Positions 24,009-43,789 of a stretch of DNA of 64,000 nucleotides are shown piece after piece. Origin of the DNA: Sinimarinibacterium arenosum (GTDB lineage: Bacteria; Pseudomonadota; Gammaproteobacteria; Nevskiales; Nevskiaceae); the NCBI RefSeq assembly GCF_005047655.1, contig NZ_SUKF01000010.1, forward strand, positions 62,001-126,000, written 5' to 3'. Positions within the stretch are counted from its first letter, which is position 1. Each line of letters begins with the position of its first letter. Under the pieces are notes generated by a model that worked only from the letters and a program-made list of their open reading frames with translations, was not told where the DNA came from and made no database searches. A program made the position numbers and the translations under genes.

Positions 24009-24428
24009 TCACTCGCGCGGGCGCGGCTTGCCGCTCCCGCCGAGCAGCCCCTTCCAGAACTGGATCCGCGGCAGACCGCTGGCGATGTCTCCGGTATGAC
24101 CCGCCATCTCGCTGACATTCACCGCCAGCCTGAACACCACCATCAGGAATTCAAGTCCGATCCGGCACAGCGTCACCAGCACCACGAAGCCCACAGGGGC
24201 AACCAGCAGCAGACGAAACAGGCCTACCGCCAGCGATTGCGTGAATCCTCCAATCGCGTAGGTCAGCATTCCATATGCGCTGGCAGCAATCGCCAGCATG
24301 TACAGCGTCGGCAGCATGCGCGGCGTGATCAGTTGCTCAAAACGCAGATCGAGCAGGCTGCGCAGAAAATCGCGCGCGCTGTCCAGCAGCGCAGACACGG
24401 TCAACCGTGTGGGGTCTTCAGGGGACAT
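24009..24428 (-). CDS. DUF4282 family small membrane protein
   Basis: 139 aa. An N-terminal cytosolic helix (SALLDSARDFLRSLLDLRFEQLITPR) is followed by two membrane helices, about residues 41-61 and 72-98, then an amphipathic region and a Gly/Lys/Arg tail. This order is the DUF4282 pattern; the family has no known function. It is 39 bp downstream of the DUF445 gene on the same strand, so both membrane proteins may come from one transcript. The stop lies 6 bp from the converging AIG2-like gene. Confidence 0.8.
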   Translation of the reverse strand: MSPEDPTRLTVSALLDSARDFLRSLLDLRFEQLITPRMLPTLYMLAIAASAYGMLTYAIGGFTQSLAVGLFRLLLVAPVGFVVLVTLCRIGLEFLMVVFRLAVNVSEMAGHTGDIASGLPRIQFWKGLLGGSGKPRPRE

Positions 24429-25703: not shown

Positions 25704-25971
25704 GGCAACTCCGCGGCCGGCGCGCTGCGCCAGCGGCCCGGCAACGTGAATGGATGGTCCCCGCAGCGCCTCGTTCAAGCTTTTAATAGTGCGCTCGGAC
25801 GTGAACTTAACACTGCGGATCACCCTCGCCAACTGACCGATGAATGACCTTCGACTGTCATTCCGGCAAACTAGCCCGGTGTCGTGAATGCGGCCGGCCG
25901 CGGAACCCGGAAGGATCGGGCTCCCGTACCGACCCCGGCGCGCACTCATAACAAGAAGGGTCAAACGGGTG

Positions 25972-26985
25972 ATGCGGGACTCCGGACAATTTCTGCTGGT
26001 TGTGCACGAGGCCATGGTCAAGGCCGGCATCGACGTCAACGCGATTTACACCCGGCTCGGTTACGACGCCGAGAAGCTGCCTCTGCGGGAACTGCGCACG
26101 CCGCACCAGCAGCAGGCACTGTTCTGGCAGGTGGTCGAGGGCGTAACCAGCGATCCCGACGTCGGCCTGCACCTGTGCCCCCACCTGCCGCTGTTCCGCG
26201 GCGAGGTGATCGAATACCTGATGTTCAGCAGTCCCACCTTCGGCGAAGGCATCCTGCGCGCGCTGAAGTACATCCGTCTGGTCAGCGACGCACTCAGCGT
26301 TCGGCTGGTCCATGACGAACAGGGCGCACGCATTGCCGTCATCGGCAGCACTCTGGACGCACCGCAGCTGCGCCATACCGAGATCTGCGTCGTTTACGAG
26401 CTGATCCAGTTTGCGCAGTCCGTCACCGAACTGCGGTATGCGCCGCTGCGGGTCAAACTGCGCTGCAGCCGCCGCAGCCCGCAAAGCGATTACGACGCGG
26501 TCTTCGGCTGTCCGGTCGAATTCGACGGGCTGGAAAGCGAGATCTGGTTCAACCCGGCGCTACTGGAATTTCGCTCACCCCGCTGGGACCCGGATCTGCT
26601 GAAGCTGCACGAGGAATTCGCGCAGAAACGCCTGTCTGACCTGCACCGACGCGACCTCGTCGAACAGATCCGCAAGGTGCTCTCGCAGCGGCTGGAACTG
26701 GAAACCTGCGACCTCGATGATGTCGCCCGCGAAGTCGGCCTGGCCCCGCGACGCCTGCGCTTCGAGCTGTCGCGTGCGGGGACCAGCTTCAGCCAGATCG
26801 TCACCGATTTCCGCTATGCGCTCGCGCGCAAGCTGCTGGCCCGCACCGAAGAGCCGATTGACAACATTGTCTATCTGACCGGCTTTTCCGAACCCAGTAC
26901 CTTCTACCGTGCCTTCAAGCGCTGGTGTGGCATGACACCGGTACAGTATCGCGAGTCACATCGCGCCCCACCCGCGGGATCCTGA
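25972..26985 (+). CDS. AraC-family transcriptional regulator
   Basis: 337 aa. Residues about 10-210 are the long N-terminal effector domain seen in OruR/VirS-type AraC proteins. Residues about 235-332 hold the two helix-turn-helix units, with the second carrying the family signature LTGFSEPSTFYRAFKRWCGMTP. Proteins of this subgroup often control lipid, sterol or amino-acid genes next to them. Here the gene immediately precedes, in the same direction, the 27131-36095 operon. A direct repeat 86 bp past its stop is a plausible binding site. The ATG at 25972 is chosen over a GTG one codon earlier and over the longer frame from 25888. Confidence 0.88.
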   Translation: MRDSGQFLLVVHEAMVKAGIDVNAIYTRLGYDAEKLPLRELRTPHQQQALFWQVVEGVTSDPDVGLHLCPHLPLFRGEVIEYLMFSSPTFGEGILRALKYIRLVSDALSVRLVHDEQGARIAVIGSTLDAPQLRHTEICVVYELIQFAQSVTELRYAPLRVKLRCSRRSPQSDYDAVFGCPVEFDGLESEIWFNPALLEFRSPRWDPDLLKLHEEFAQKRLSDLHRRDLVEQIRKVLSQRLELETCDLDDVAREVGLAPRRLRFELSRAGTSFSQIVTDFRYALARKLLARTEEPIDNIVYLTGFSEPSTFYRAFKRWCGMTPVQYRESHRAPPAGS

Positions 26986-27070
26986 GTCAGCGATTTCCGC
27001 GCGACCTTGCGGACACGCGGCGCGGCGGCAGGGTCAATGCAAGCCGGCGCGATTGCGCATACTGTGTTCG

Positions 27071-27096
27071 GGATCGACCGCACTAGACGGATCGAC
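27071..27096. promoter_or_regulatory. Direct repeat, candidate AraC-type operator
   Basis: GGATCGAC occurs at 27071-27078 and again at 27089-27096, 18 bp apart on the same face region of the helix. It is flanked by an inverted pair CATACTG (27058-27064) and CAGTATG (27102-27108). It lies between the regulator gene and the first operon gene at 27131. The assignment is inference from spacing and position. Confidence 0.45.
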
Positions 27097-27130
27097 GAAT
27101 CCAGTATGAAGGCCATTTGGAGGAGAACGA

Positions 27131-27343
27131 ATGTCCGCTGCGCACCCCCTGGCCGATGAGCTGGGCTCACAGCCGTTGCCTGCGCTCGACGCGCTGACGA
27201 CTGCCGAGATCGAACTGCTGCGCCAGAGTATCCGCGCCGCACGTGTGCACCAGAAACAACAGCTGGCCCGCGCCTTCGAGGCCGCACTCGGACACATTCC
27301 CGCACTGCTGCGCGGTCCCGTGCGCAAGATCCTCTTCCCGTAG
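27131..27343 (+). CDS. Small cytosolic protein of unknown function, 70 aa
   Basis: The ATG is preceded by a strong GGAGGAGA site, which argues for a translated gene despite the short length. The protein is soluble and helical, with a long basic amphipathic helix (about residues 24-60: Leu/Ile/Ala/Arg/Gln rich) and no signal peptide or known motif. It is the first gene after the candidate operator and its stop lies 11 bp before the next start, so it should be co-translated with the helical-repeat protein. It may be a small partner of it. Family not recognised. Confidence 0.65.
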   Translation: MSAAHPLADELGSQPLPALDALTTAEIELLRQSIRAARVHQKQQLARAFEAALGHIPALLRGPVRKILFP

Positions 27344-27354
27344 AGGCGAGCGCA

Positions 27355-28383
27355 ATGGCGACGTTGGCCCAACACGCAGAAATTCTGAAGCTGGCGCGAG
27401 TGCTCGCGACCACCCCGGGGCAGCTGGCGTATCTCGAAAAGCTGGATGCAGCATCCATTCGGCAGCTGCGCGAACGCATTACTGGCAGCCTGTTTGACGC
27501 TGACCAGCACCTGTTCCACCGCGTCGCCGCCTCCAGTCGTCTGCTGCCTGGAAAGATCACCGCCCTGATCGCGGAAAAAGCACTGGGCTCGCTGCTGTGT
27601 GCCCGCATCGCCGGCTTGCTGCCAGCGGATCGTGCGGTCGATATTGCCAAACGTCTGCACACACCCTTTCTGGCCGACGTCTGCCTGGAGATCGACCCGC
27701 GCCATATCCGCGAGCTGATCGCGGGAATGCCGCTGGACCGCGTGGTCGATGTCGCACGGGAGCTAGCCGGCCGCCGCGAACATATCGCCATGGCCCGCTT
27801 CGTCGATTGCCTGCCGGAAACCGCGATGCGCGCGATTCTGGCCGCGCTGCGCGACGACGTCGCGTTGCTGCAGATCGGTTTCTTCGTCGAGGACCCGGCC
27901 CAGCTCAGCGCAGTGATCGCGATGCTGCCGGACGCCCGGCTGCGCAACATGATCGCTTCGGCCATCGAGGGCGACGACGAGCTGTGGCCGGAAGCGATGA
28001 ATCTGATCAATGGCATCGCCACCCCGCAACGCCGTCACATGGCGGCGCTCGCCGCCGACCTGGGCGATGCCATGCTGACGCGCATGCTCGAACGCACGCA
28101 CCGCCAGTCGCTGTGGCCGGCATTGCTGCCGATCGTCGCTGAAATGGCGACGGCGCAGCATGCACATCTGGCGCGTCTGGCCGCGCTGGACAATGACGCC
28201 ATGCTGGAGTCGCTGATCCTCGCTGCGCATCAAGGCATGCTATGGCCGCAACTGCTGCCCCTGGTCGCCAACATGCCGTCACCGACCCAAAGTCGTGCGG
28301 CCAGCATCGCCGAACGTCTGGGGCCGGATGTGGTGACGCAATTGACCCAGGCCATCCGCACCGCCGCCTCACCGGCCGCTTGA
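27355..28383 (+). CDS. Alpha-helical repeat protein of unknown function
   Basis: 342 aa, cytosolic, no signal peptide and no membrane helices. The sequence is a run of short helical pairs with recurring Leu-Pro turns (AGLLPADRAVDIAKRL, AGMPLDRVVDVAREL, DCLPETAMRAILAAL), which resembles the superhelical N-domain of MgtE. Later copies contain a repeated LWPxLLPxVAxM phrase (near 275 and 310), showing internal duplication. It is translated 11 bp after a 70-aa protein and precedes the DUF1302 gene by 152 bp. A scaffold or regulatory role is possible, but nothing shows it. Confidence 0.75.
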   Translation: MATLAQHAEILKLARVLATTPGQLAYLEKLDAASIRQLRERITGSLFDADQHLFHRVAASSRLLPGKITALIAEKALGSLLCARIAGLLPADRAVDIAKRLHTPFLADVCLEIDPRHIRELIAGMPLDRVVDVARELAGRREHIAMARFVDCLPETAMRAILAALRDDVALLQIGFFVEDPAQLSAVIAMLPDARLRNMIASAIEGDDELWPEAMNLINGIATPQRRHMAALAADLGDAMLTRMLERTHRQSLWPALLPIVAEMATAQHAHLARLAALDNDAMLESLILAAHQGMLWPQLLPLVANMPSPTQSRAASIAERLGPDVVTQLTQAIRTAASPAA

Positions 28384-28451
28384 ACACAGGTCAACCAGAA
28401 CATTGACTGATGACAATGTCAGCAATCAATGGCAAAGTATCCGGCATAGTA

Positions 28452-28512
28452 CGGCTCCGACAGGAGCCGAAAAAGTTGCCGGCAAATGGAATTTCGCCGG
28501 TGAAATACCGGT
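28452..28512 (+). promoter_or_regulatory. Structured leader upstream of the DUF1302 gene
   Basis: Three inverted repeats follow each other: CGGCTCC-GACA-GGAGCCG (28452-28469), the palindrome TTGCCGGCAA (about 28475-28484) and CCGGT-GAAAT-ACCGG (about 28498-28512). None has a T-run for termination. They end about 25 bases before the start at 28536, so they could affect mRNA stability or translation. Confidence 0.4.
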
Positions 28513-28522
28513 CATCGAGTGC

Positions 28523-28532
28523 TCGGGGGAGA
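28523..28532 (+). promoter_or_regulatory. Shared leader decamer before DUF1302 gene
   Basis: TCGGGGGAGA lies 3 nt before the ATG at 28536. The same ten bases precede the genes at 32381 and 33516. It serves as the ribosome-binding site and includes a GGA core. Confidence 0.6.
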
Positions 28533-28535
28533 ACG

Positions 28536-30722
28536 ATGCGCGGATTGATTCTGGTCGGATTCGGAATGGCGGGCGTGGCTTGCTGCGGCTCAGCGACAGC
28601 ATTCGAGTTTGATTACGGCGATATCAGCGGCAGCCTGAAAACGCGAATTTCCTTGGGCGCATCGTGGCGCATCGAGAATCGCGATCCGCGCCTGATCGAC
28701 AAGAACAATCTTGACCCGACCCTCTGCGGCAGCGGTGTCAATGACGCCTGCCTCTCGTTCAACGAGAACGCCAGCCTGAATCAGAAGTTGGTCGACGCGC
28801 CAGGTTCGTTCTTTGCCCTCAACAAGGACGACGGCAATCTCAACTATGACCAGGGCGATATTGTCGCAGCAGTGTCCAAGGTGAGTTCGGAACTGACCAC
28901 CTCCTACGGTGACTGGACCTTCAAGGCCGGCGGCACGGTGTTCTTCGATCCCGTCAACTACGACTTCGACGAATTCCATCCAGACACCACCTATCAACCG
29001 CGCCGCACGCTGCGAAACGACACCGTCGAACACAATGTCGGCTACGACTACACGATCGGAAATCTGCTGGTCAGCGGCGTATTTTCTCTGTTCGATCACG
29101 AGTTCTCGGCTGCCGTCGGTTATCAGCACATCCGCTGGGGTGAATCGACCCTGATTGCGCTCAACAGCATCAGCGAACTCAACGCTCCGGACGCGCGTTA
29201 CCTGTATCAGCCGGGCACACAGATCGCAGCAGTATTCCGTACCACCCCCGCAGCCGTGTTGACCACGGCGCTGAACGACAGTGTCTCGATCGATCTGGTC
29301 TATCAACTCGCCTGGGATGGCGTTGTCGTTCCCAAGGGCGGCAGTTTCTTTGCACCGTTTGACGTCATCGGCCGCGACACCGCGCAGCTGACCCTGGGCC
29401 AGTTCCACGAAGACCCGGACGGACTGCAGCGGCTGCCCGGCATTGGCGCAGACATCTCCGACACTTCGGTGGCGGTTTCGGTATCACAGAAGGAGGGTGA
29501 ACCGCGCGATGACGGCCAGTTCGGCGGCAAGCTAACGTGGTACGCGGCCGACTTCAACGGCGGCACTGAATTCAGTTTCTATGCGCTGAATTACCACAGC
29601 CGCCTGCCGTATCTGAGCATGTATGCCGCAGACCACACCTGTATCCAGGACAGCACCACCGATGTGCTGAAGGCCACGGCCGACTGCGACGGCATGAAAC
29701 TGACTCCGAACGGCCTCGAACCTGCACCGATCGACAGCTCCCGGATCTTCCTCGACTACCCCGAGGACATCCAGATGTACGGCATCAGCTTCAACACCAC
29801 GGTCGGCAAGTGGTCGCTCGCCGGCGAGGTGTCGTATCGCCCTAATCTGCCGGTACAGATCCAGATCACCGATGTTGTCTTCACTGCATTGCAGCCGGCT
29901 CTACCGGCCAATGACATTGTGCTGGGACTGGGTTCGGTATCGCAGCTGACACTGGACGGCCTGATCTCGCTGGGACTGGAACCGGGCACTGCATTGGCGG
30001 TCCTGACGTCGCCGTCGACGCTTAACCTGCTGGGCCAGATCGCCGCCAACGCCGGCAGCGATTTTGCGCTGCCCGCTCGTGATCATGCAGTCCCAAGCTA
30101 TCTGAAGGACTACCGCGGCTGGGACACGGTGCAAGCCAACCAGCTGATTCGAGGCTATGAACGCCTGCAAGTGATGCAGATGGACATGACCGGCATCCGC
30201 ATCTTCGGCAACAGCGAGAACCCGATCGGCGCAGATCAGGTCACGCTGATCACCGAGGCCGGCTTTACCTGGGCCATGGACATGCCGGATCGCAGCAAGT
30301 TGCAGTTCGAAGGCGGCGACTACAACAACACGCACGCCAGCCCCGGCGCCGACGGCAGCGGCGGCTTGCCCGCCGATGGCTCGCCGGCAACCATGCGCCT
30401 GAACCCGAAGCAGCAGACCAGCGGCTTTGCCGACGACTTCGCCGGCGGCTATCGCATCATCGTCCGCGCCGAATACAACAACCTGTTGTTCGGCTGGACC
30501 TACAAACCGCAGATCGTCTGGTCGCACGACGTCTACGGCATTGCGATCAGTCCGTCGCAGAACTTCATCGAGGGCACGATGCTTTATCAGCTCGCCACCG
30601 ATGTCGAAATCACCAACAAGCTCGGCGCTCAGGTGTTCTACCAGGGCTGGGCCGGCGGCGGAACCGTCAACGGCTACAAGGACAAGGACTTCGCAGGATT
30701 TGCGGTGTCGTACACGTTCTGA
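28536..30722 (+). CDS. DUF1302 outer-membrane beta-barrel protein
   Basis: 728 aa. A signal peptide (about 1-24) leads to a mature start FEFDYGDISGSLKTRISLGASWR, which is typical of DUF1302. The rest alternates short amphipathic strands with Gly/Asp/Asn loops, and the C-terminus ends FAGFAVSYTF, the aromatic beta-signal of outer-membrane barrels. The family has no proven function but regularly neighbours DUF1329 and RND proteins. Likely role: the outer-membrane pore or lipid contact of the envelope system. The longer frame from 28410 is rejected because TCGGGGGAGA lies 3 bp before ATG 28536. Confidence 0.88.
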   Translation: MRGLILVGFGMAGVACCGSATAFEFDYGDISGSLKTRISLGASWRIENRDPRLIDKNNLDPTLCGSGVNDACLSFNENASLNQKLVDAPGSFFALNKDDGNLNYDQGDIVAAVSKVSSELTTSYGDWTFKAGGTVFFDPVNYDFDEFHPDTTYQPRRTLRNDTVEHNVGYDYTIGNLLVSGVFSLFDHEFSAAVGYQHIRWGESTLIALNSISELNAPDARYLYQPGTQIAAVFRTTPAAVLTTALNDSVSIDLVYQLAWDGVVVPKGGSFFAPFDVIGRDTAQLTLGQFHEDPDGLQRLPGIGADISDTSVAVSVSQKEGEPRDDGQFGGKLTWYAADFNGGTEFSFYALNYHSRLPYLSMYAADHTCIQDSTTDVLKATADCDGMKLTPNGLEPAPIDSSRIFLDYPEDIQMYGISFNTTVGKWSLAGEVSYRPNLPVQIQITDVVFTALQPALPANDIVLGLGSVSQLTLDGLISLGLEPGTALAVLTSPSTLNLLGQIAANAGSDFALPARDHAVPSYLKDYRGWDTVQANQLIRGYERLQVMQMDMTGIRIFGNSENPIGADQVTLITEAGFTWAMDMPDRSKLQFEGGDYNNTHASPGADGSGGLPADGSPATMRLNPKQQTSGFADDFAGGYRIIVRAEYNNLLFGWTYKPQIVWSHDVYGIAISPSQNFIEGTMLYQLATDVEITNKLGAQVFYQGWAGGGTVNGYKDKDFAGFAVSYTF

Positions 30723-30799
30723 GCAAGCGATACCGGGAACAGCAAGACAATCAAACGGCCACGGTCGCGCGATAACGGGTTTGGCAAGGAGAGAGGCGC

Positions 30800-32350
30800 A
30801 TGATTCAAAAAAGACATTGGTGGATACCGCTGATTGCGGCTGCGGCACTGGGTTCGACTTCGGGCGCGTTCGCCAAAGCGTCGGCTGACGAAGCCGCACG
30901 CCTCGGCAAGGATCTGACGCCGGTCGGTGCGACCCGCGCCGGTAATGCCGATGGCAGCATTCCGGAGTGGATCGGCGGCAAATATTTCGACGACACCATC
31001 CGCAAGCAGACTCCGGCCAGTCTCGAAGCACTGCGCCAGCAATTCGAGGACGTGCGCACCAAGAGCCCGCAGGACTTCGACGCGTTGCTGAAGTATCTCG
31101 ATAATTTCAAGATCGAAGACTATCCAGCGATCTCCAAGCAGATCGACGCGATCATCGCCAAGCTGCCCGCGGACCAGCAGGCCCTGGCCAAGAAGCAGCG
31201 CGAGCAGATCGGTGGCGGCGGCAAGTACGAGGCCCCGCAGTTCATCATCACCAAGGACACGATGGCGAAGTACGCCGAGCACCTGACCGAAGGTCAGAAG
31301 GCGATGTTCGCCAAGTACCCCGACTACCGGATGATCGTGTATCCGTCACTGCGCACGGCCTACTTCCCGACGGAAGTTGAGCAGGCCACGATCAAGAATG
31401 CGACAACAGCCTCACTCAAGGGCACTGACGAGGTCGAAGGTGCTGTGCTCGGCTTCCCGTTCCCGATTCCGAAGAGTGGCGCTGAAGTGTTGTGGAACCA
31501 CAAAATGCGCTTTCGCGGCAGCGCCGTGCGACGCTACAACAATCAGGCGATTGTCAAACTCGATGGCAGCTACAAGATCAGCAAGCTGGTCGAGGATGTG
31601 AAGTTCAAGTACGCCAACCTGCAGGAAGCCAATCCGGGCACCAAGATCCTGCTGTATTACCTCTCGGAAGTGCTCTCGCCGCCGCGTGTTGCCGGACAGC
31701 TGATCCTGGTGCATGAGACTTCGGGAGCCGAAGGTAGCGGCCGCGATGCCTGGATCTATAACCCGGGTCTGGGTCGCGTCAATCGCGCACCTGACGTCGG
31801 CTACGACAACCCGTACATCGGCACCGACGGCGAGCAGTTCAATGATCAGGTCGACCTGTTCAATGGCGCACTCGATCGCTACGACTGGAAGCTGGTCGGC
31901 AAGAAGGACATGTACATCCCGTACAACTCCTTCCTGATCAACGCGCCGTTGATCAAGTACAAGGACATTATCCGTCCGGGTCATATCAACCAGAACCTCG
32001 CGCGTTACGAGATGCATCGCGTCTGGATCGTCGAGGCTACGCTGCGCCAGGGCCTGCGCCATCAGTTCAAAAAGCGCCGCTTCTATGTGGATGAAGACAG
32101 CTGGGCCATCGCCGCGGTGGACTGCTACGACAACCGCGACCAGCTGTGGAAGGTCCAGGAAGGCCAGTTGATCACGGTGCCGTTCGTGCCGACAGTGACT
32201 GCGATCCCCGAAATCATCTATGACCTGCAAAGCGGGCGTTATTTCGTCACTGCCCTGCAGAACGAGGACAAGATCAGCGACTTCAAGATCGACTTCAACG
32301 ATCGCGATTTCGCGCCCAATGGTCTGGCCCGCAAGGCTCAAAGCAAATAA
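30800..32350 (+). CDS. DUF1329 periplasmic protein
   Basis: 516 aa. Signal peptide residues 1 to about 27 (cut near GAFAKA). DUF1329 marks are the mature start DEAARLGKDLTPVGATRAGNADGSIPEW, which is the most conserved part of the family, and the YTSNTx-like central strands. The fold has been compared with lipoprotein carriers of the LolB kind, so binding of a lipid-like ligand is plausible. It follows the DUF1302 gene by 77 bp and precedes the YCF48-like gene by 30 bp. AAGGAGAG lies before the ATG. Family sure, function inferred from context. Confidence 0.9.
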   Translation: MIQKRHWWIPLIAAAALGSTSGAFAKASADEAARLGKDLTPVGATRAGNADGSIPEWIGGKYFDDTIRKQTPASLEALRQQFEDVRTKSPQDFDALLKYLDNFKIEDYPAISKQIDAIIAKLPADQQALAKKQREQIGGGGKYEAPQFIITKDTMAKYAEHLTEGQKAMFAKYPDYRMIVYPSLRTAYFPTEVEQATIKNATTASLKGTDEVEGAVLGFPFPIPKSGAEVLWNHKMRFRGSAVRRYNNQAIVKLDGSYKISKLVEDVKFKYANLQEANPGTKILLYYLSEVLSPPRVAGQLILVHETSGAEGSGRDAWIYNPGLGRVNRAPDVGYDNPYIGTDGEQFNDQVDLFNGALDRYDWKLVGKKDMYIPYNSFLINAPLIKYKDIIRPGHINQNLARYEMHRVWIVEATLRQGLRHQFKKRRFYVDEDSWAIAAVDCYDNRDQLWKVQEGQLITVPFVPTVTAIPEIIYDLQSGRYFVTALQNEDKISDFKIDFNDRDFAPNGLARKAQSK

Positions 32351-32365
32351 CGCGTCTGCCGTATC

Positions 32366-32375
32366 TCGGGGGAGA
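32366..32375 (+). promoter_or_regulatory. Shared leader decamer before YCF48-like gene
   Basis: TCGGGGGAGA lies 5 nt before ATG 32381. It is identical to the decamers before the genes at 28536 and 33516 and acts at least as a strong ribosome-binding site. Confidence 0.6.
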
Positions 32376-32380
32376 AGACG

Positions 32381-33490
32381 ATGACTCAGAAGCACGAACG
32401 CAGCCGCGTCTGCCGTATTGGCGCGGCTACGCTAGGGGTCGTGAGCGTTCTGTTTGGAACGCTGGTGTGGGCTCAGGACGATGAGGTCGGGATCGACACG
32501 ACACTGGAGCCGCGCCCGGCGGTAATCGCGCCACGCTCGGAGTCATCGCTGCTGCTGGACATCACACGCGCCGGCGACCACTACGTGGTCGTCGGTCAGC
32601 GCGGAAATATCCTGCTGTCCGCCGATGGCACACAGTGGAAGCAGGTTCCTGTTCCCAACGACGCAACCCTAACCCGCGTTCGCTTCGTCGACGCGAATAC
32701 CGGCTGGGCCATCGGCTACGACGGCACGGTACTCGGCACCACTGACGGCGGCGAGCACTGGACCCTGCTGCAGCACGACGCCGCCTGGGGCAAGCCCTAC
32801 TACGACATCCATTTCTTCGACGCCAGCACCGGCCTGCTCGCAGGCGCCAACGGCGTGCTCAAGCGCAGCAGCGACGGCGGCATGTCCTGGCAGGACATCG
32901 ATACCGACGCCCTGGAAGACGGCCCCAATCTGTACAACCTGATCACGCTCGGCGACGGCAGCCTCCTGCTGGCTGGCGAACGTGGATTCCTTGCACTTTC
33001 AGGTGACCGCGGAGAGACCTGGCAGCGTCTGAAGTCGCCTTACACCGGCTCGTTCTTCGGCGCACTGCCGATCAACCCGTCGGGGGCCGTGATCTTCGGT
33101 CTGCGCGGCAACGCGTTCTACGCAGCAGATCTGGCACAAGCGGCGATCCTGACGCCGGAGGACGTCGAGGCGATGCGCGAGGCCGCGTTTGATCCCGAGG
33201 CCGCCACCGGTGCCGCCAACCCGGTCAGTACCGTCGCTGGCTGGACCGAACTGGCCAGCGATTCATTCGAGAGTTTGTTCGGCGGCACGCTCACAGCGGA
33301 CGGCACCGTGCTGCTGTTCGGCATGAACGGACACGTCATGCAGGCCGATCTGACGCAGGCCAAGCTGTCGCGCCTGCCGCTGGATGCAAACGCCAATACC
33401 GACATCAATATGAATGCCGGCCTCGTCGCCGGAGACAGCCTGATCGTCGTCGGCACGTCCGGCGTCCAGCGCCTGCACTGGTCGCACTGA
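32381..33490 (+). CDS. YCF48-like beta-propeller periplasmic protein
   Basis: 369 aa with a signal peptide (basic start, hydrophobic core, cut near VWAQ). Propeller blades show the YCF48/BNR rhythm of a Gly-Xaa-Gly turn and an (S/T)xDGGxxW box: GYDGTVLGTTDGGEHW, GANGVLKRSSDGGMSW and GERGFLALSGDRGETW. In photosystem II the YCF48 fold acts as an assembly factor; in this operon type it sits next to an RND permease and probably serves as its periplasmic partner or scaffold. The gene lies 30 bp after the DUF1329 gene and 25 bp before the permease. Confidence 0.85.
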   Translation: MTQKHERSRVCRIGAATLGVVSVLFGTLVWAQDDEVGIDTTLEPRPAVIAPRSESSLLLDITRAGDHYVVVGQRGNILLSADGTQWKQVPVPNDATLTRVRFVDANTGWAIGYDGTVLGTTDGGEHWTLLQHDAAWGKPYYDIHFFDASTGLLAGANGVLKRSSDGGMSWQDIDTDALEDGPNLYNLITLGDGSLLLAGERGFLALSGDRGETWQRLKSPYTGSFFGALPINPSGAVIFGLRGNAFYAADLAQAAILTPEDVEAMREAAFDPEAATGAANPVSTVAGWTELASDSFESLFGGTLTADGTVLLFGMNGHVMQADLTQAKLSRLPLDANANTDINMNAGLVAGDSLIVVGTSGVQRLHWSH

Positions 33491-33499
33491 CCACCTATT

Positions 33500-33509
33500 T
33501 CGGGGGAGA
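33500..33509 (+). promoter_or_regulatory. Shared leader decamer before RND permease gene
   Basis: TCGGGGGAGA lies 6 nt before ATG 33516, the third identical copy inside this operon. Confidence 0.6.
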
Positions 33510-33515
33510 TACGTC

Positions 33516-36095
33516 ATGGCAGGAGCCGCTATCAGCGGGCCGATTACCGACCGCATTCTGCGTGTGGTGGAGCCGATCATCTACGGCCGCCGTCACATCA
33601 CGCACATCATTCTGATTCTGCTAACCGCGTTCTTCGCATTCCAGACCACGCGCCTGCAACCGGATGCCGGCTGGCTCAAGTCGGTGCCGCTGAATCATCC
33701 TTACATGCAGAAGTTTCGCGAGTACTACCGAGACTTCGGCGGCGCCAACAGCGTGCTGTTCGCGCTGATCCAGAAGGACGGCGACATCTACAACGAACAC
33801 TTCATGGACCAGCTGCAGCAGGCAACCGATGACGTGTTCTTCACCCCCGGCGTGGACCGTGCGCGCGTGATGTCGCTGTTCACGCCCAACGTCAACTATG
33901 TCGAGAACGTCGAGGGAGGCCTCGCCGGCGCGACGGTGATTCCACCGGACTACAAACCGACACCTGAGGTGCTCGAAAAAGTCCGCTCCAATGTCGCCAA
34001 GGCGCAGGTCATCGGTCGCCTGGTCACCAACGATCAGCGCGGCGCGATGATCATGGCCGAGCTGCTGGAAGTTGATCCGCGTACCGGCGAGAAGCTCGAC
34101 TACCGCGAAGTCGGCGGCTATCTCGAGAAGCTGCGCGCGAAGTACGAGAAGGACGGCATCACGGTCCACATCATCGGCTTCGCCAAGATCGTCGATGACA
34201 TGACCAACGCGTCGCTCGAAGTCGCCGGCTTCTTCGGGCTGACATTGATCATCACCGGTCTGCTGCTGTGGGCCTACTGCGGCTCATGGAAGCTGGGCAT
34301 CATTCCGCTGGGCTCCTCCATCGTCGCCGTGATCTGGGAGATGGGTCTGCTGCGCTCGTTCGGCTATGGCCTGGATCCGTTCGCGATCCTGGTGCCGTTT
34401 CTGATCCTCGCGGTCTCGGTCAGTCACGGCGTTCAGTACGTCAATTCCTGGGTCGACGAAGTCCACGCCGGTCGCAACAGCTACGACGCCTCGCTGGAAA
34501 CCTTCCGCCGTCTGGCGATTGCCGGCACCATCGCTCTGGCCACCGATGTGGCCGGCTTTGCGACGATCTACCTGATCGAAATCCAGATCATCCGCGAGAT
34601 GTCGATCAATGCCGTGCTCGGCGGCCTTGCGATCATCATCGCCAACAAGATGTTCGTGCCGATCTGGCTGACGATGATCCGGCTCAAGGATGTCAACGCC
34701 TTCATCGAGCGCCAGAACAAACGCGACGCCGTGCTCGACAAACTCTGGTGGCGCATGTCGGGCGTAACGCGCACACCGGTTGCCGCGACCGTGCTGATCA
34801 TCTGTGCGGTCATTGCCGGTTGGGCGTTTTGGGCCAAGGAGGACCTGAAGATCGGCGATGCGCTCAAGGGCGTCCCCGAACTGCGCCCCGATTCGCGCTT
34901 CAATCAGGACTTCAACGCGATCACCGACAATTTCCAGATCGCGGTCGACATCTTCAAGGTCATCGCCGAAAGCAAGCCCAACGGCTGCATCGACTACCAG
35001 CTGATGAACCAGATCGACCGTTTCACCTGGCAGATGGAAAACACCGCAGGCGTGCAGTCGACGCTGTCGCTGCAGACCTTCGCCAAGCTGGTCTACCAGG
35101 GTCTGTCCGAAGGCCGCCTCAATGCGCTGGTGCTGCCGCGCAATCACTTCGCATTGGCACAGGCTACCGCGCTGGTCCCTACCAGTACGGGCCTGCTCAA
35201 CGATGACTGTGATGCCCTGGCGGTCTACATGTTCACCAAGGACCATCGCGCCGAAACGATCAGCCACATCGTCGACGAGGTGAAGAAATTCAACGCGGAG
35301 AACCGCGCGGACTTCTTCGCACGCGCGACCGATGTGACGCCGGAATACTGCGACACCAAGTACGACACGTTCCAGCAACTCAAACGCGCCAATGCCGAGG
35401 TGTTTGCGTTGGCCGAAGACAGCGCACAGGACCCGGAGAAACTGCGGCAGGCTCAGGAGCAGCGTAACGCGCTGCAGTCCAAGTACGACGAGATGAGCCA
35501 CGATTGCCCGGTCAACTTCGCGCTCGCCACCGGCAATGTCGGTGTCATGGCGGCAACCAACGAAGTGGTCAAGGCCGAGGAAGGCCAGATCGTGCTTTGG
35601 GTCTACGCCGTGATCCTGGTCCTGTTGTGGCTGTCGTTCCGCAACTGGCGCGCCATCGTCTGCGTCGTCCTGCCGCTGGCCCTGGTCTCGGAACTGGGTT
35701 ACGGCGTGATGGCCACGCTCGACATCGGAATGAAAGTCGCCACCCTCCCCGTGCTGGCACTGGCGGTCGGTATCGGCGTCGATTACGGCATCTACGTCTA
35801 CGGCGTCATGGCCGGCGCGCTCGATGAGGGCAAGCCCCTGCGTCAGGCCTATTACGAAACGCTGCGCGGGACCGGCAAGGCGGTCATCTTTACGGGCCTG
35901 ACTCTGGGCGCCTCGGTCCTGACCTGGCTGATGTCTGAACTGCAATTCCAGATCGACATGGGCAAGCTGCTGCTGTTCATGTTCACTGCCAACATGCTGG
36001 GCGCGATCTTCGTGCTGCCGTCCATCGCAGCGTTCCTGCATCGGACCCCGGAAGCCGGCGAAAGTCATCTGGCCCATATCCGCCCGGAACCCTGA
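33516..36095 (+). CDS. RND/MMPL-family permease
   Basis: 859 aa. Layout: one membrane helix near residues 25-42, a large periplasmic loop to about 230, five helices to about 390, one helix near 420, a second periplasmic loop to about 695, then the last five helices. GIGVDYGIYV near 755 is the family helix with the proton-relay Asp; AVSVSHGVQYV is the equivalent in the first half. The pattern is that of MMPL/HpnN-type exporters of hydrophobic compounds rather than multidrug AcrB pumps, and no membrane-fusion protein is encoded here. It is the last gene of the operon, followed by a terminator. Confidence 0.92.
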   Translation: MAGAAISGPITDRILRVVEPIIYGRRHITHIILILLTAFFAFQTTRLQPDAGWLKSVPLNHPYMQKFREYYRDFGGANSVLFALIQKDGDIYNEHFMDQLQQATDDVFFTPGVDRARVMSLFTPNVNYVENVEGGLAGATVIPPDYKPTPEVLEKVRSNVAKAQVIGRLVTNDQRGAMIMAELLEVDPRTGEKLDYREVGGYLEKLRAKYEKDGITVHIIGFAKIVDDMTNASLEVAGFFGLTLIITGLLLWAYCGSWKLGIIPLGSSIVAVIWEMGLLRSFGYGLDPFAILVPFLILAVSVSHGVQYVNSWVDEVHAGRNSYDASLETFRRLAIAGTIALATDVAGFATIYLIEIQIIREMSINAVLGGLAIIIANKMFVPIWLTMIRLKDVNAFIERQNKRDAVLDKLWWRMSGVTRTPVAATVLIICAVIAGWAFWAKEDLKIGDALKGVPELRPDSRFNQDFNAITDNFQIAVDIFKVIAESKPNGCIDYQLMNQIDRFTWQMENTAGVQSTLSLQTFAKLVYQGLSEGRLNALVLPRNHFALAQATALVPTSTGLLNDDCDALAVYMFTKDHRAETISHIVDEVKKFNAENRADFFARATDVTPEYCDTKYDTFQQLKRANAEVFALAEDSAQDPEKLRQAQEQRNALQSKYDEMSHDCPVNFALATGNVGVMAATNEVVKAEEGQIVLWVYAVILVLLWLSFRNWRAIVCVVLPLALVSELGYGVMATLDIGMKVATLPVLALAVGIGVDYGIYVYGVMAGALDEGKPLRQAYYETLRGTGKAVIFTGLTLGASVLTWLMSELQFQIDMGKLLLFMFTANMLGAIFVLPSIAAFLHRTPEAGESHLAHIRPEP

Positions 36096-36124: not shown

Positions 36125-36152
36125 AATGCGGGGCGAAAGCCCCGCATTTTTT
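36125..36152 (+). terminator. Intrinsic terminator of the DUF1302-RND operon
   Basis: AATGCGGGGC-GAAA-GCCCCGCATT forms a perfect 10-bp stem with a GAAA tetraloop, followed by a T-run (TTTTTTC). It lies 30 bp beyond the permease stop and is a textbook rho-independent terminator. Confidence 0.93.
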
Positions 36153-36234: not shown

Positions 36235-37110
36235 CTAGGCTTTCTTGCGTCCGCGGACGCGGCTGGCGTCAACCTTTTCCGGCTTCACCGTCGAGCGTTG
36301 TGACAACTGATCGAGCACTGCAGCCAAACGATCGCCCATGTGCGCCGTGGCAGCGATCTCCATCGCCCGCGCCACTTCAGAGAGCACGGCCATCTCTACC
36401 AGCGGCCGCAGCCGCCAGATGATGTCGCCGAGGCGCGCGACTTCTTCAGACGGCGGCAGGCCTTTGCCGTAACGATCGAACAAATACTTCTCGACCAGCT
36501 GCACCATGCGCTCGGAAGCCAGCTCCACGTTCGCCCGCAGGTGGCTGACGACATCCAGCATCTCGTCCAGCGGAATACCTGCCTTCACCAGTTCGGCACC
36601 GGCCTGGATCATGCGAGGACTCGGCGCACGGAAACGCGCGCCCTCGGGCACCAGGATTTTCAGATCGGAGGCCTTGACCAGCCAGCGCACATCGAAGCTG
36701 CCGCCGAACATTTTTACCAGCTCGGTCAGCGAAAACTGCTTCGGGACCTCGTCGGTCCAGGGACTGGATACCGCCGACTCGAGTCCGAACACACCGGCCA
36801 GATCGGACCCACGCTCCCACGCCTCCAGCAGTTCACCGATGCTGCTCAAGGTAAATCCGCGCGCCAGCAGCTGGCCAATGATGCGCAGCCGCGAAAGATG
36901 CGCCTCACCGTATACCGCAATGCGACCGCGGCGCTCCGGCGGCGGAATCAGGCCGCGATCCTGGTACGCGCGCACATTGCGCACCGACGTGCGTGCTGTT
37001 CGTGCCAGCTCCTCGATGCTGAACTCGATACTGCGCCGCGGATCTTCAACCGCGGCGTCCGGCTCTGCACGAGCCTTGACGGAGGCTTTTGATTTTCTTG
37101 GACTTGCCAT
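36235..37110 (-). CDS. MerR-family transcriptional regulator
   Basis: 291 aa. After a basic tail, residues about 29-95 contain the MerR winged helix (SIEELARTARTSVRNVRAYQDRGLIPPPERRG then AVYGEAHLSRLRII). The region beyond is much longer than in metal-sensing MerR proteins and is helical, with no Cys-rich metal site, so an organic or lipid effector is more likely. It diverges from the PF10118 gene at 37285; the 174-bp gap holds short direct and inverted repeats around a TTGACA element, a natural site for regulating that gene. Confidence 0.88.
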   Translation of the reverse strand: MASPRKSKASVKARAEPDAAVEDPRRSIEFSIEELARTARTSVRNVRAYQDRGLIPPPERRGRIAVYGEAHLSRLRIIGQLLARGFTLSSIGELLEAWERGSDLAGVFGLESAVSSPWTDEVPKQFSLTELVKMFGGSFDVRWLVKASDLKILVPEGARFRAPSPRMIQAGAELVKAGIPLDEMLDVVSHLRANVELASERMVQLVEKYLFDRYGKGLPPSEEVARLGDIIWRLRPLVEMAVLSEVARAMEIAATAHMGDRLAAVLDQLSQRSTVKPEKVDASRVRGRKKA

Positions 37111-38184: not shown

Positions 38185-39393
38185 TCAGTGTAATTCGCTG
38201 GAGGTCTTGCCGAGCAGACGTCGAGCCACAATCAGCAATTGGATCTGCTGCGTGCCTTCAAAGATGTCCAGAATCTTGGCGTCGCGCGCCCATTTCTCCA
38301 GCAACTCACTTTCACCATAGCCAACACTGCCACACAGTTCGACGCACTTGAGCGCGATGTCGACGCAGCTGCGTCCCGCCTTGGCCTTGGCCATGCTGGC
38401 CTGCAGTGAATTCGGCTTGCGATTGTCCGCCATCCACGCAGCCTGCAAGGTCAGCAGGCGCGCCGCCTCATAGTCCGCCTCCATTCGCAACATTTCGGCC
38501 ACCGCCGCCGACTGCACCAGCGCCGGACGATCGTAGTCCACCTCCACCCCCGCTTCACCGAGGATGCGCCGCGTCTCATCAAGGCACGCACGCGCCAGAC
38601 CCACGCCCATCGCAGCAACCAGCGGACGCGTGTTGTCGAAGGTTTGCATGACTCCCGCGAAGCCCTTCTCGACATTGATTGTCGGCTCGCCGAGCAGATT
38701 CTCCTTGGGCACCCGACAGTCACGCAGCGCAAACTGCGCGGTATCCGAAGCGCGAATGCCCAGCTTGTGCTCCAGGCGCACCAGCTCGAATCCCGGCGTG
38801 CCCTTCTCGACGACAAAGGACTTGATCGCGGCACGACCGGCGTGGCGATCCAGTGTCGCCCACACCACCACCAGATCAGCGCGCTCGCCGGACGTGACAA
38901 ATATCTTGTCGCCATTGAGCACATAGTGATCGCCGTCGAGCGTCGCCGTGGTGCGAATCGCGGCCGAGTCCGAACCACAGTGCGGCTCGGTGATGGCCAT
39001 CGCGGCCCAGCGCCCTTCGAAACGCTTGAGCTGTTCATCGCTCGCCACCGACGCGATCGCCGAATTGCCCAGTCCCTGGCGCGGCATCGTCAGCAGAAAG
39101 CCGACGTCGCCCCAGCACAGTTCCATCGCACCGAGGGCGGTCGACATATTGCTGCCGTTGCGATTGCCGTCGGAGTCGAGCTTGTCACGCCGCACGCCCG
39201 CGGCGCCGGCTCCTTCACTGCCGCCACCCGCATTCATGCCGTCGAGCAGCGCGCCGAGCATGTCGAGTTCCTTCGGATACTCGTGTTCCGCCAGATCGTA
39301 ACGACGCGAATTGGGACGGAAGATCTCACGCGCGACCTGATGCGCCTGTTCAACCAGCATGCGGAATTTCTTGGGCGTTTCGAGATTGATCAT
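38185..39393 (-). CDS. Acyl-CoA dehydrogenase (first of a tandem pair)
   Basis: 402 aa, the standard short acyl-CoA dehydrogenase size. The FAD-contact segment AITEPHCGSDSAAIRT, the QTFDNTRPLVAAMGVGLAR region and the catalytic base in ILDIFEGTQQIQLLI are all present. It oxidises an acyl-CoA to the 2-enoyl-CoA. ATG 39393 with GGAG upstream is preferred to the frame opening at 39546. It starts 11 bp after the stop of a second, more divergent acyl-CoA dehydrogenase, so a two-subunit enzyme like those of sterol side-chain breakdown is a reasonable idea. Confidence 0.93.
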   Translation of the reverse strand: MINLETPKKFRMLVEQAHQVAREIFRPNSRRYDLAEHEYPKELDMLGALLDGMNAGGGSEGAGAAGVRRDKLDSDGNRNGSNMSTALGAMELCWGDVGFLLTMPRQGLGNSAIASVASDEQLKRFEGRWAAMAITEPHCGSDSAAIRTTATLDGDHYVLNGDKIFVTSGERADLVVVWATLDRHAGRAAIKSFVVEKGTPGFELVRLEHKLGIRASDTAQFALRDCRVPKENLLGEPTINVEKGFAGVMQTFDNTRPLVAAMGVGLARACLDETRRILGEAGVEVDYDRPALVQSAAVAEMLRMEADYEAARLLTLQAAWMADNRKPNSLQASMAKAKAGRSCVDIALKCVELCGSVGYGESELLEKWARDAKILDIFEGTQQIQLLIVARRLLGKTSSELH

Positions 39394-39404: not shown

Positions 39405-40721
39405 TCAGACCAGCAATACGCCTTCGACGACACCGGCCGCACGCAGATCGCGATACCAGCGTTCGACCGGATGCTCCTTGACGAAGCCGTGCCCTCCAAG
39501 CAACTGCACTGCGTCTGATCCGATCTGCACGCCTTTCTCGATACACAGTCGCCGCGCAACCGCTGTCTGCTGCGAAAACGCCAAGCCCTGCTCGGCACGG
39601 CTCGCGGCACGCAAGGTGGTCAGACGCATTCCCTCAAGCTCGATCCCGATATTGGCCACTGCAAATGCAACCGACTGGCGATGGCTGATCGGCTCACCGA
39701 ACGCGGTACGCTCATTAACGTAGGGAATCACGTAATCCAGTGCCGCCTGTGCCGTACCCACTGACAGCGCACACCAGCCAAGGCGGCCAAGATTCAGACA
39801 GTCCCGATAAACCTGAGCGTCGGCATCGGCGATCAGCGCCGTGGCCGGCAGCTGCACTCCCTGAAGATGAACGCGCGCGGTGGACGCTGCACGCAGCCCC
39901 ATTGCCGGCTCGGCTTCGATGCTGAGGCCTGCGCTCGACGACTCAACCAGAAACAGCGCCGGCCCACGGCCCTCAAGTTCAGCCGCAATGATGAATAGCT
40001 CGGCGCTTGCAGCTCGCGGCACCAGCGACTTGACGCCGTCCAGTACAAAGCCGCCGCCGACCGCGCGTGCACGCGCGCGCAGCGCCAGAGGATCGAACAA
40101 CGGCTGCGGCTCAAGAATTGCCAGTGCAGCGCCCGGCGTATGTTCACCGGCGAAGGCGGGCAGATAAGTCGCCTGCTGCTCCGGATTGCCCCACAGCACC
40201 AATGCATTGGACACCGCCGAAGGGGCCAGGCAGGCCACAGCCAGCGACAGATCGCCCTGCGCCATCGCCTCCGCGATCAGCACATTGGTCACCGCGTTGC
40301 GCTGAGCGCCCGCACCCCCCAGCGATTCGGGGATGCCGAGTTGGGCAATACCCAGTTCCGCTGCAGCGGTCAGCAGCTCATCCGGCGCCGATGTTGCGGC
40401 ATCGGCAGCTGCGGCAGCCGGGCGCAACTGCTCTTGCGCATAACTCAGTACCGCTTCGCGCAACATGACCTGATCGTCGTCCGGAGTCAGATCAAACAGA
40501 CTCCGCGATGGCGCACCTGCCAGGCGTGCCGGTTTCAATAAGGTCTGGGTCGCCTTGAAACTGCGGCCAACAGCGCCCGCGGCACGAAAGCCGACACGTG
40601 CGCCGGTGTACATGGCGCGCTCGGTAGTGCGCCGCAGACCCAGCTTGTCGACCAGCGGCAAGCCGGCGAGCCGGTTCAGCGCACGCAGCCCCAATCCCAT
40701 CGCGTTCGACGTCAGACTCAT
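39405..40721 (-). CDS. Divergent acyl-CoA dehydrogenase (second of a tandem pair)
   Basis: 438 aa. It has a 70-residue N-terminal extension rich in Ala, Leu and Arg, then the acyl-CoA dehydrogenase fold from SLFDLTPDDDQVML. The middle FAD/substrate segment is degenerate (AILEPQPLFDPLAL in place of the usual TEPxxGSD). The end LLGGHGFVKEHPVERWYRDLR is conserved, but the protein stops five residues after the expected catalytic Glu (VVEGVLLV), lacking the normal C-terminal helix. This and its coupling to the 38185 gene suggest a specialised subunit. Upstream lies the SRPBCC gene in the same direction. Confidence 0.9.
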   Translation of the reverse strand: MSLTSNAMGLGLRALNRLAGLPLVDKLGLRRTTERAMYTGARVGFRAAGAVGRSFKATQTLLKPARLAGAPSRSLFDLTPDDDQVMLREAVLSYAQEQLRPAAAAADAATSAPDELLTAAAELGIAQLGIPESLGGAGAQRNAVTNVLIAEAMAQGDLSLAVACLAPSAVSNALVLWGNPEQQATYLPAFAGEHTPGAALAILEPQPLFDPLALRARARAVGGGFVLDGVKSLVPRAASAELFIIAAELEGRGPALFLVESSSAGLSIEAEPAMGLRAASTARVHLQGVQLPATALIADADAQVYRDCLNLGRLGWCALSVGTAQAALDYVIPYVNERTAFGEPISHRQSVAFAVANIGIELEGMRLTTLRAASRAEQGLAFSQQTAVARRLCIEKGVQIGSDAVQLLGGHGFVKEHPVERWYRDLRAAGVVEGVLLV

Positions 40722-40765: not shown

Positions 40766-41230
40766 TCAGCTCATCGCGTCGCGTGTCTGCTCGAGAAAGA
40801 CATCCACAAGTCGCGTGAATTTGCCCTGGATGAAGGGCGGCGCGACGAGACGATAGATCAGCGGCACCGGCACTTCTCGAAGCTGCCCGCGCACTTCAAA
40901 GTCGAGCCGCGTCGCCGCGCCCGCATCGACCAAACTGAATTGCCCTTCAATGTGTGCGTTGCCGTGCCCGGGCACGGGCTTCCAGCTCAGGCGCCCATTT
41001 CGCGGGTCAACCTGATAGCGGGCAGCGTAACTGACCTGGTGTGCAATGTTGGCGATCTTCGAACCGATTGGGGCCATCTCCCACAGGAATGCATCCTCTC
41101 CCAAGGGCGTCAGTTTGCGCAGCTTGGGGAAGCGTCGAATCGTCTGCTCGTAATTTTCCAGCAGGGAATTGACGCGATCGATCGGCGCAGGAACTTCGAC
41201 ACTGCGTGCAATACTGATTTCGATTTTCAT
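40766..41230 (-). CDS. SRPBCC (START-like) ligand-binding protein
   Basis: 154 aa. Same fold and motif order as the protein at 7154-7624 (RFPKLRKLTPLGEDAFLWEM, HQVSYAARYQVD, VPVPLIYRLVAPPF). Predicted to bind a hydrophobic molecule in its cavity. AAGGAG lies 5 bp before ATG 41230, so the longer frame is rejected. It is transcribed with the two acyl-CoA dehydrogenase genes (44 bp gap) and after the acyl-CoA synthetase gene (124 bp), so it probably handles the same lipid substrate. No catalytic residues are evident. Confidence 0.87.
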   Translation of the reverse strand: MKIEISIARSVEVPAPIDRVNSLLENYEQTIRRFPKLRKLTPLGEDAFLWEMAPIGSKIANIAHQVSYAARYQVDPRNGRLSWKPVPGHGNAHIEGQFSLVDAGAATRLDFEVRGQLREVPVPLIYRLVAPPFIQGKFTRLVDVFLEQTRDAMS

Positions 41231-43175: not shown

Positions 43176-43324
43176 GCGCGTACACCGGCATTTGGATTCG
43201 GTGTCATTGAAAGTCTCCCCCGCACGGAATCGTTTGAATCCGTCGACTGTCGGCGTTTGCGGGGGGTGATGCAATCGCCGCGATGACAGCCCCAGCTGTC
43301 GAGACGGCGCGCCAGCCGAAAAAC

Positions 43325-43789
43325 TCAGGCTGCCTGAGCGGCCAACGGGGGCGCCACGGCAGCACTGCGACCTTGATGGAGGCAACGCTCAAGCCAGCGA
43401 TACAGCAGCTCCCGTGCCGCGTGATCCGGCTTCTGCTTGGACGTTTCGCGTTCCGCAACATCCAGAATGCGCAGCAACACCTCATGCGTCAGCGTATCAG
43501 GCTGCGACATACCCGACTGAATCAGCTCCGAGCGAATCATCAGACGGATCGGCTCCAGCAGACCGCGCAGCGGATGTCCCGGCGTCGCAAAAGTCTCCCA
43601 CGGAATTGAAGAACCCGGCATGGCCCGCAACGTCTCCAGTGCGACCGTCCAGAACACCTCGATCGCCAGCTCAAGCCGCTGTGCACCCGGCCGCATTCCT
43701 GTAGTCACTCGCAGCATGCGATTGCGCAGGCTTTCAAGGAAAGCTCGCGGTGCAAGGCCTTGGGGAATTGTGAATTCGGAAGCTGACAT
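43325..43789 (-). CDS. Protein of unknown function, 154 aa
   Basis: A soluble, mostly helical protein without signal peptide or membrane segments; Leu- and Arg-rich throughout. I recognise no domain. Its position 150 bp upstream of the acyl-CoA synthetase gene on the same strand suggests, but does not show, a link to it. Coding is supported by the codon pattern (third-position GC) and by no competing frame on the other strand. It could be a small helical regulator. A degenerate ribosome site precedes the ATG. Confidence 0.6.
   Translation of the reverse strand: MSASEFTIPQGLAPRAFLESLRNRMLRVTTGMRPGAQRLELAIEVFWTVALETLRAMPGSSIPWETFATPGHPLRGLLEPIRLMIRSELIQSGMSQPDTLTHEVLLRILDVAERETSKQKPDHAARELLYRWLERCLHQGRSAAVAPPLAAQAA

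Follow-up and report, generated by a model that had tools for sequence, protein, structure and literature searches.

An AmeABCD-type gene cassette with an accessory helical protein pair in Sinimarinibacterium arenosum: a candidate trans-envelope lipid conduit

What does a run of genes for an outer-membrane protein, two periplasmic proteins and an RND permease carry across the cell envelope, and in which direction? We address this question for a block of seven plus-strand genes (25,969–36,095; all frames open) in a 64,000-nucleotide stretch of the genome of Sinimarinibacterium arenosum, of the Nevskiaceae (G000:C2:62001-126000, where G000 is the 4.54 Mb genome; hereafter the window). The block encodes, in order, an AraC-family regulator, a 70-amino acid (aa) protein (S70), a helical protein (HEL), a DUF1302 outer-membrane protein, a DUF1329 periplasmic protein, a YCF48-like β-propeller and an RND permease. 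A first-pass annotation, made from the sequence, regarded it as an unassigned trans-envelope system for lipids or other hydrophobic compounds. We favor, at a probability of roughly 0.55, the reading that the block is an AmeABCD-type trans-envelope lipid conduit under AraC control, extended by the S70-HEL pair and working inward.

The four-gene core is a known cassette type

The genes from DUF1302 to the permease form an AmeABCD-type cassette, a known kind of system for which published roles and direction disagree. AmeABCD of Castellaniella defragrans was described in 2018 as a tetrapartite RND system and proposed to export monoterpenes (PMC6394551). It comprises a DUF1302 protein, a DUF1329/LolA-like protein, a COG4447/YCF48 protein and an RND permease (assigned to HAE3) in the identical order, within a catabolic island for lipophilic compounds, and its authors place relatives of the AmeD lineage in the same cassettes. 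Because content and order equal those of AmeABCD, and match sets in aromatic regulons, a benzene degrader and Pseudomonas putida, the core is not ‘unassigned’: the sections consulted of this report and of three further papers already describe it. An AphR/S/T-regulated operon has the same four genes, with a suggested role against aromatic toxicity or solvent stress (PMC6449761), and a similar set in the benzene degrader ORM2a was named the ‘Nanopod’ cluster, with putative benzene transport (PMC13101534). Both contain a porin-like/DUF1302 protein, DUF1329, YCF48/COG4447 and an MMPL/COG1033 permease; they differ from the block studied here in their aromatic setting and, in ORM2a, in a universal stress protein. 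The ORM2a report also cites a deletion of DUF1329 from earlier nanopod work. AmeABCD differs in its betaproteobacterial host (the window's is gammaproteobacterial) and its monoterpene substrate, a comparison made without the AmeD sequence. The consulted sections of these three reports mention no S70-HEL pair. In P. putida, PP_0765 (DUF1302), PP_0766 (DUF1329), PP_2018 (periplasmic) and PP_2019 (efflux transporter) are required on Tween 20 and were hypothesised to form a putative novel transport system (PMC10866462). Unlike the genes of the block they are split over two loci, and they are joined by the Tween-20 phenotype and by predicted contacts, strong for PP_2018-PP_2019 and weak from PP_0766 to both membrane partners. 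The YCF48-RND pair that we find in a P. putida strain (L165), behind an aminopeptidase gene and with no DUF1302 or DUF1329 gene nearby, is presumably PP_2018/PP_2019.

The seven genes of the block run in one direction, in the order given by the first-pass annotation, to a hairpin terminator (Table 1). The gaps downstream of araC measure 145, 11, 152, 77, 30 and 25 bp in order. The 152-bp gap runs to 28,536, which is probably the DUF1302 start, rather than the longest open reading frame (ORF) start at 28,410, because a signal-peptide-like stretch begins there. Membrane and signal statements in this work come from a hydropathy scan and from reading by eye; signal-peptide-like N-termini were seen by eye on the DUF1302, DUF1329 and YCF48 proteins, two of which the scan flags. 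The sole Pfam match of the outer-membrane protein at E ≤ 0.01 is DUF1302, with no match to FadL/Toluene_X. The DUF1329 protein matches the LolA_like family PF17131 at 43 bits (cut-off 30 bits) and gave no phmmer match to PDB sequences at E ≤ 0.1, and the YCF48 protein matches a YCF48-like protein among PDB sequences at 4.4e-22. The permease has 11 membrane segments and no close solved structure; the nearest are the RND transporter 5khn and MmpL5 (both ∼1e-13) and HpnN (6wu0; 6.7e-13), matched via its second half. It does not reach the NCBI HAE3 cut-off (TIGR00921; 157.2 versus 351.9 bits). Across 14 aligned permease copies, D756-Y757 is invariant near transmembrane segment 10 (TM10), and the corresponding place at TM4, matched by eye, is an invariant H304; the two halves of the permease are therefore not equivalent.

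The core is not a standard tripartite pump, as the first pass had argued. No membrane-fusion protein or TolC family (HlyD/OEP) occurs among the 20 window genes scanned with Pfam, out of 57 called in all and 22 in the interval from 12 to 43 kb; such partners could be encoded at other places in the genome. No outer-membrane partner other than DUF1302 was seen for the window permease, unlike the situation of one AmeD-like paralogue in the same genome, whose gene comes immediately after those of a complete OEP-HlyD-AcrB tripartite pump (L055:3176-11671; G000:C1, ∼254.2–262.7 kb). A Sinimarinibacterium locus (L138) has an order similar to this pump-permease arrangement, judged by gene length as sole criterion.

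A neighborhood survey supports the first-pass statement that the quartet recurs. A permease alignment search of named genomes confirmed at least 555 relatives among 596 pattern matches, and the best 80 were used; these loci were picked by permease similarity alone, and those from related genomes are not independent. Core and lipase counts were made on six-frame translations, ‘canonical order’ meaning consecutive among recognised genes. All four core genes are present in 51 of these 80 loci, in consecutive canonical order in 49. When 17 loci with shorter flanks are left out, the remaining 63, each with 7 kb or more of sequence ahead of the permease, include 45 with all four genes and 43 with the order DUF1302-DUF1329-YCF48-RND. 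Quartet hosts belong to the Pseudomonadota, Verrucomicrobiota (L115, L124, L130), Nitrospirota (L100) and Myxococcota (L103). In a quick tree of 105 rows with some long branches, built without Castellaniella AmeD, the window permease falls in a Nevskiaceae clade within a larger, mostly quartet-bearing lineage.

The S70-HEL pair

Two small helical proteins are encoded between the regulator and the core. The S70 family corresponds to no Pfam family, its alignment giving nothing better than 0.025, and the MgtE_N match of HEL is confined to residues 84–140. Structure models are a helical hairpin for S70 (predicted local distance difference test (pLDDT) 91) and an all-helical solenoid for HEL (pLDDT 89). 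Both proteins are most likely cytosolic, because the hydropathy scan gives no membrane segment in either. An MgtE magnesium channel was considered for HEL and rejected, there being no membrane domain and no hydrophobic segment. HEL relatives differ in repeat number and length, from 306 to 845 aa (845 aa in L071), and two appear by eye to have a hydrophobic C-terminal tail that probably anchors them in the membrane (relatives listed: L071:8702-11239, L073:9939-11633 and L079:11564-13147). Several S70-HEL loci have a DUF4282 gene nearby, including those of the window (24009–24404, minus strand) and L073 (L073:9416-9730), where the DUF4282 gene and S70 overlap by four bases.

Of the 85 genomes searched from the order, 63 carry HEL (E ≤ 1e-3). 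The search beyond the order was a draw from the class: among 369 genomes so drawn, six have HEL at E ≤ 1e-10, namely the window's own, two others from the order and, with partial matches only, three from elsewhere in the class. A contig scan with HEL alone returned no relative, and HEL occurs in two of the 80 best permease loci, both from Nevskiaceae. In the 30 best-scoring of the 63 HEL genomes, taken with 1.5-kb flanks, S70 is directly upstream of HEL in every locus, and a quartet gene lies within 1.5 kb of the pair in 18 (eight DUF1302, eight RND, one YCF48 and one DUF1329).

This distribution bears on whether the pair belongs to the transporter or is unrelated and parked in the cassette by chance. 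For 12 of the 30 pairs, the 1.5-kb flanks hold no quartet gene, though in G031 and G032 a DUF1302 gene lies two genes upstream, and eight genomes of genus g21 carry HEL without a DUF1329 match at E ≤ 1e-40 (S70 was confirmed beside HEL in one of them, L085). Chance placement is nonetheless doubtful. HEL lies on the same contig and within 5.2 kb of the permease in 13 of the 16 permease matches that are at least 75% identical to the window's, and it does so at two positions, upstream of DUF1302 in six and behind RND in seven. In the remaining three genomes, the HEL gene and the permease gene lie on separate contigs; the cassettes of G024 and G029 (L069, L070) are cut by a contig end beside the pair. 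In G058 and G059 (L081, L036, L041), S70-HEL also lies behind a permease paralogue that is less closely related. Its presence in the eight g21 genomes does mean that HEL is not solely part of the transporter. We conjecture that the pair forms a scaffold on the inner face of the membrane.

Substrate and direction of transport

Lipid or hydrophobe handling, the first-pass suggestion, is still the best reading of the block, on the LolA-like match of the DUF1329 protein, conserved synteny with acyl-CoA genes and, in some relatives, a VolA-type lipase gene next to DUF1302. The synteny is clearest in a locus from another genus (L075), where genes for an acyl-CoA synthetase, a START-like protein, both acyl-CoA dehydrogenases, a 263-aa protein, S70, HEL and the quartet follow on one strand; the START-like protein, with no Pfam match of its own, was recognised through similarity to the window's. 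Parts of this block are present in L069, L070 and L071. That the same partners recur in different arrangements supports a shared pathway.

The gene immediately before DUF1302 belongs to PF12262 in all five loci tested with Pfam, which we take to be the N-terminal family of VolA-type lipases. With a hidden Markov model built from these five genes, we searched the 45 loci in which DUF1302 precedes RND on the same strand and is itself preceded by 2.5 kb or more of sequence (all four core genes were not required). Twelve of them, all with the full quartet, carry a VolA-type lipase gene immediately adjoining DUF1302, and the gap between the two open frames ranges from −142 to +16 nt. A thirteenth lipase lies elsewhere in the window's genome (L057:4848-10670; G000:C1, ∼468.8–474.7 kb), where DAO/DAO_C (GlpD-like), lipase and DUF1302 genes are consecutive on one strand, possibly as a lipid-scavenging unit. 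Among the 13 lipase frames, 11 fit a simple lipobox pattern and 12 contain a GxSLG motif. In the permease tree, lipase-bearing loci fall in one large gammaproteobacterial group and, apart from it, in a Nitrospirota locus; changes on this tree require at least two lineages with the adjacency.

In Vibrio cholerae, VolA releases acyl chains and FadL takes them in (PMC12208996). The relatives share with this scheme a surface lipase next to an outer-membrane barrel, so by analogy the adjacency points to DUF1302 as a putative acceptor of released acyl chains and favors lipid uptake over export. DUF1302 is, however, not FadL, and the VolA-FadL model, in the sections consulted, does not include RND, YCF48 or DUF1329. 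The lipase is a clue rather than a rule, because such a gene is missing next to the window locus itself and from 33 of the 45 loci tested.

Export is a competing explanation that we regard as less probable. Here, the RND permease would draw hydrophobes out of the inner membrane, the place of the membrane-fusion protein would be taken by YCF48 and DUF1329, DUF1302 would be the exit, and the nearby acyl-CoA genes would merely mark growth on toxic lipophilic substrates. RND permeases of known direction are mostly exporters, and the window permease is related in sequence to the HpnN and MmpL transporters. In C. defragrans, deletion of AmeABCD lowered monoterpene tolerance and left slightly more Nile Red in the de-energised mutant, which the authors read as export, and the aromatic-compound regulators and proposed toxicity role of the AphR/S/T operon point the same way (PMC6394551, PMC6449761). 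However, wild type and mutant hardly differed in real-time Nile Red efflux, and an ameB insertion lowered growth on monoterpenes, a phenotype that fits both directions (PMC6394551). The growth defect of the P. putida mutants on Tween 20 is easier to explain as uptake (PMC10866462), as is the lipase adjacency.

Quite improbable, in our judgment, is a role in outer-membrane lipid homeostasis, in which endogenous hopanoids, wax esters or fatty acids would be moved between the membranes as by HpnN and the catabolic neighbors would be coincidental. It would suit the LolA-like periplasmic part, the nearest solved permeases (∼1e-13 to 1e-12), among them HpnN and MmpL5, with which the window permease shares a superfamily and presumably lipid substrates, and the presence in the window's genome of a wax ester synthase/DGAT gene that is transcribed away from two DUF1302 genes (L056:6038-11766; G000:C1). 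HpnN itself is distant in sequence and has no periplasmic or outer-membrane partners according to the consulted sections of PMC6394551. Moreover, the nameable neighbors shared by the window clade are acyl-CoA catabolic and regulatory genes, and the high copy numbers of DUF1329 and DUF1302 within single genomes suggest substrate-specific use over housekeeping.

We therefore lean toward uptake of lipid-like carbon sources. In the conduit as we picture it, the DUF1302 barrel would let a hydrophobic compound through the outer membrane and the LolA-like DUF1329 protein would ferry it across the periplasm. The YCF48 propeller would dock DUF1329 onto the RND permease, which, powered by the proton gradient, would shift the compound between the periplasmic side and the inner membrane. 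S70-HEL, as a cytosolic helical scaffold, may couple arrival to activation and oxidation by the neighboring acyl-CoA synthetase and dehydrogenases, the lipid serving as a carbon source. A bolder formulation, which we think somewhat unlikely, makes the quartet a proton-driven RND lipid importer parallel to FadL, fed by the lipase and using the LolA-like protein as an inward shuttle, with S70-HEL as a cytosolic receiver in Nevskiales.

Several observations weigh against inward lipid transport by a dedicated cassette, besides the published export phenotypes, the missing window lipase and the g21 genomes above. One or more core genes are lacking in 18 of the 63 loci with sufficient flanks; incomplete loci include three from Pseudomonas that have just YCF48-RND and a Nevskiaceae/Solimonas subclade in which the permease stands by itself. 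The window's genome has 14 DUF1302 and 15 DUF1329 matches (one of the latter weak), several of these genes are solitary, and the copies are mixed. Apart from these points, much of the order has an expanded set of DUF1329 genes, with 10–19 copies in 11 of 11 genomes of the window's genus and up to at least 20 elsewhere; in 14 genomes of genus g21 none was found at E ≤ 1e-40. A YCF48-RND pair of the window's genome without adjoining DUF1302 or DUF1329 is followed by genes for a cytochrome-D1-domain protein and a TonB receptor (L059:7300-15427; G000:C22).

Regulation and genomic setting

The first-pass annotation placed araC within the operon. Strand and order agree with this; the transport operon itself probably begins at S70, because araC is 145 bp away and the gap holds an element common to three relatives. 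This element, GGTCAATG, occurs in the araC-S70 gap of the window (27,032) and of L066, L067 and L068, followed 20 or 21 nt later by a TANNNT box identified by eye; the same arrangement precedes DUF1302 in L071. Since the place of the element is shared among relatives, the simplest reading puts an AraC-activated promoter upstream of S70, and the AraC regulator, whose orthologues adjoin cassettes in L066, L067, L068, L072 and L075, is a probable activator of the operon. Three results count against a promoter: a simple scan of the gap found no sigma-70 site, the GGTCAATG motif also precedes unrelated genes in other loci, and the window contains two copies of GGTCAATGC, the second within the acyl-CoA synthetase frame, a count of 2 that 17 of 100 shuffles reach. 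L059 also has a GGTCAATG element, 79 nt upstream of the cytochrome-D1-domain gene.

Downstream of the terminator, minus-strand genes for a regulator and acyl-CoA metabolism follow (Table 1). Steroid-type heteromeric enzymes were considered for the acyl-CoA dehydrogenases; the PDB sequence matches listed are general acyl-CoA dehydrogenases only, a result that does not narrow the substrate.

Table 1. Features of the transport block and its neighbors, in window coordinates
Feature	Position	Strand	Basis or remarks
AraC-family regulator	25969..26985	+	Pfam PF12625 (5.5e-31) and HTH_18
Shared promoter-like element, GGTCAATG + 20–21 nt + TANNNT	27032..27063	+	Spacing and -10-like part by eye
S70, 70 aa, probably cytosolic helical hairpin	27131..27343	+	No Pfam family; model pLDDT 91
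HEL, 342 aa, all-helical solenoid	27355..28383	+	MgtE_N only, weak (4.3e-6); no hydrophobic segment
DUF1302 outer-membrane protein (AmeA-like)	28536..30722	+	PF06980 (2.6e-135); hydrophobic N-terminus
DUF1329 periplasmic LolA-like protein (AmeB-like)	30800..32350	+	PF07044 (6e-129); LolA_like PF17131 (5.2e-11)
YCF48-like periplasmic beta-propeller (AmeC-like)	32381..33490	+	PSII_BNR/YCF48 PF14870 (1e-17)
RND/MMPL permease (AmeD-like, HAE3-like)	33516..36095	+	MMPL (7.5e-18)
Intrinsic terminator, 10-pair stem and T-run	36125..36148	+	Strong; 3′ of the RND gene
MerR-family regulator, convergent	36235..37110	-	Also a neighbor in L066, L067, L068, L072
Acyl-CoA dehydrogenase a	38185..39393	-	Same-strand cassette neighbor in L069, L070, L075
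Acyl-CoA dehydrogenase b, long N-terminus	39405..40721	-	Adjoins acyl-CoA dehydrogenase a
START/polyketide-cyclase-like small protein	40766..41230	-	Pfam match just under cut-off
Acyl-CoA synthetase (AMP-binding)	41355..43385	-	41,355–42,833 scanned; extent from ORF

The quartet families are common, often with many copies in one genome, two of them are still of ‘unknown function’ in Pfam, and separate papers name the set differently and give it different roles. What appears new here, on a system of known kind, is the lineage-specific S70-HEL accessory pair and the association with lipases; in the consulted parts of the DUF1302/DUF1329 quartet literature we found no earlier report of either, or of the GGTCAATG element. 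The pair is an accessory without a family name that can be tracked across genomes, and the lipase linkage makes the question of import versus export directly testable. If the system does import lipids, RND permeases would gain a role in energised uptake, and degraders of hydrocarbons, sterols and terpenes would gain a candidate entry route for their substrates.

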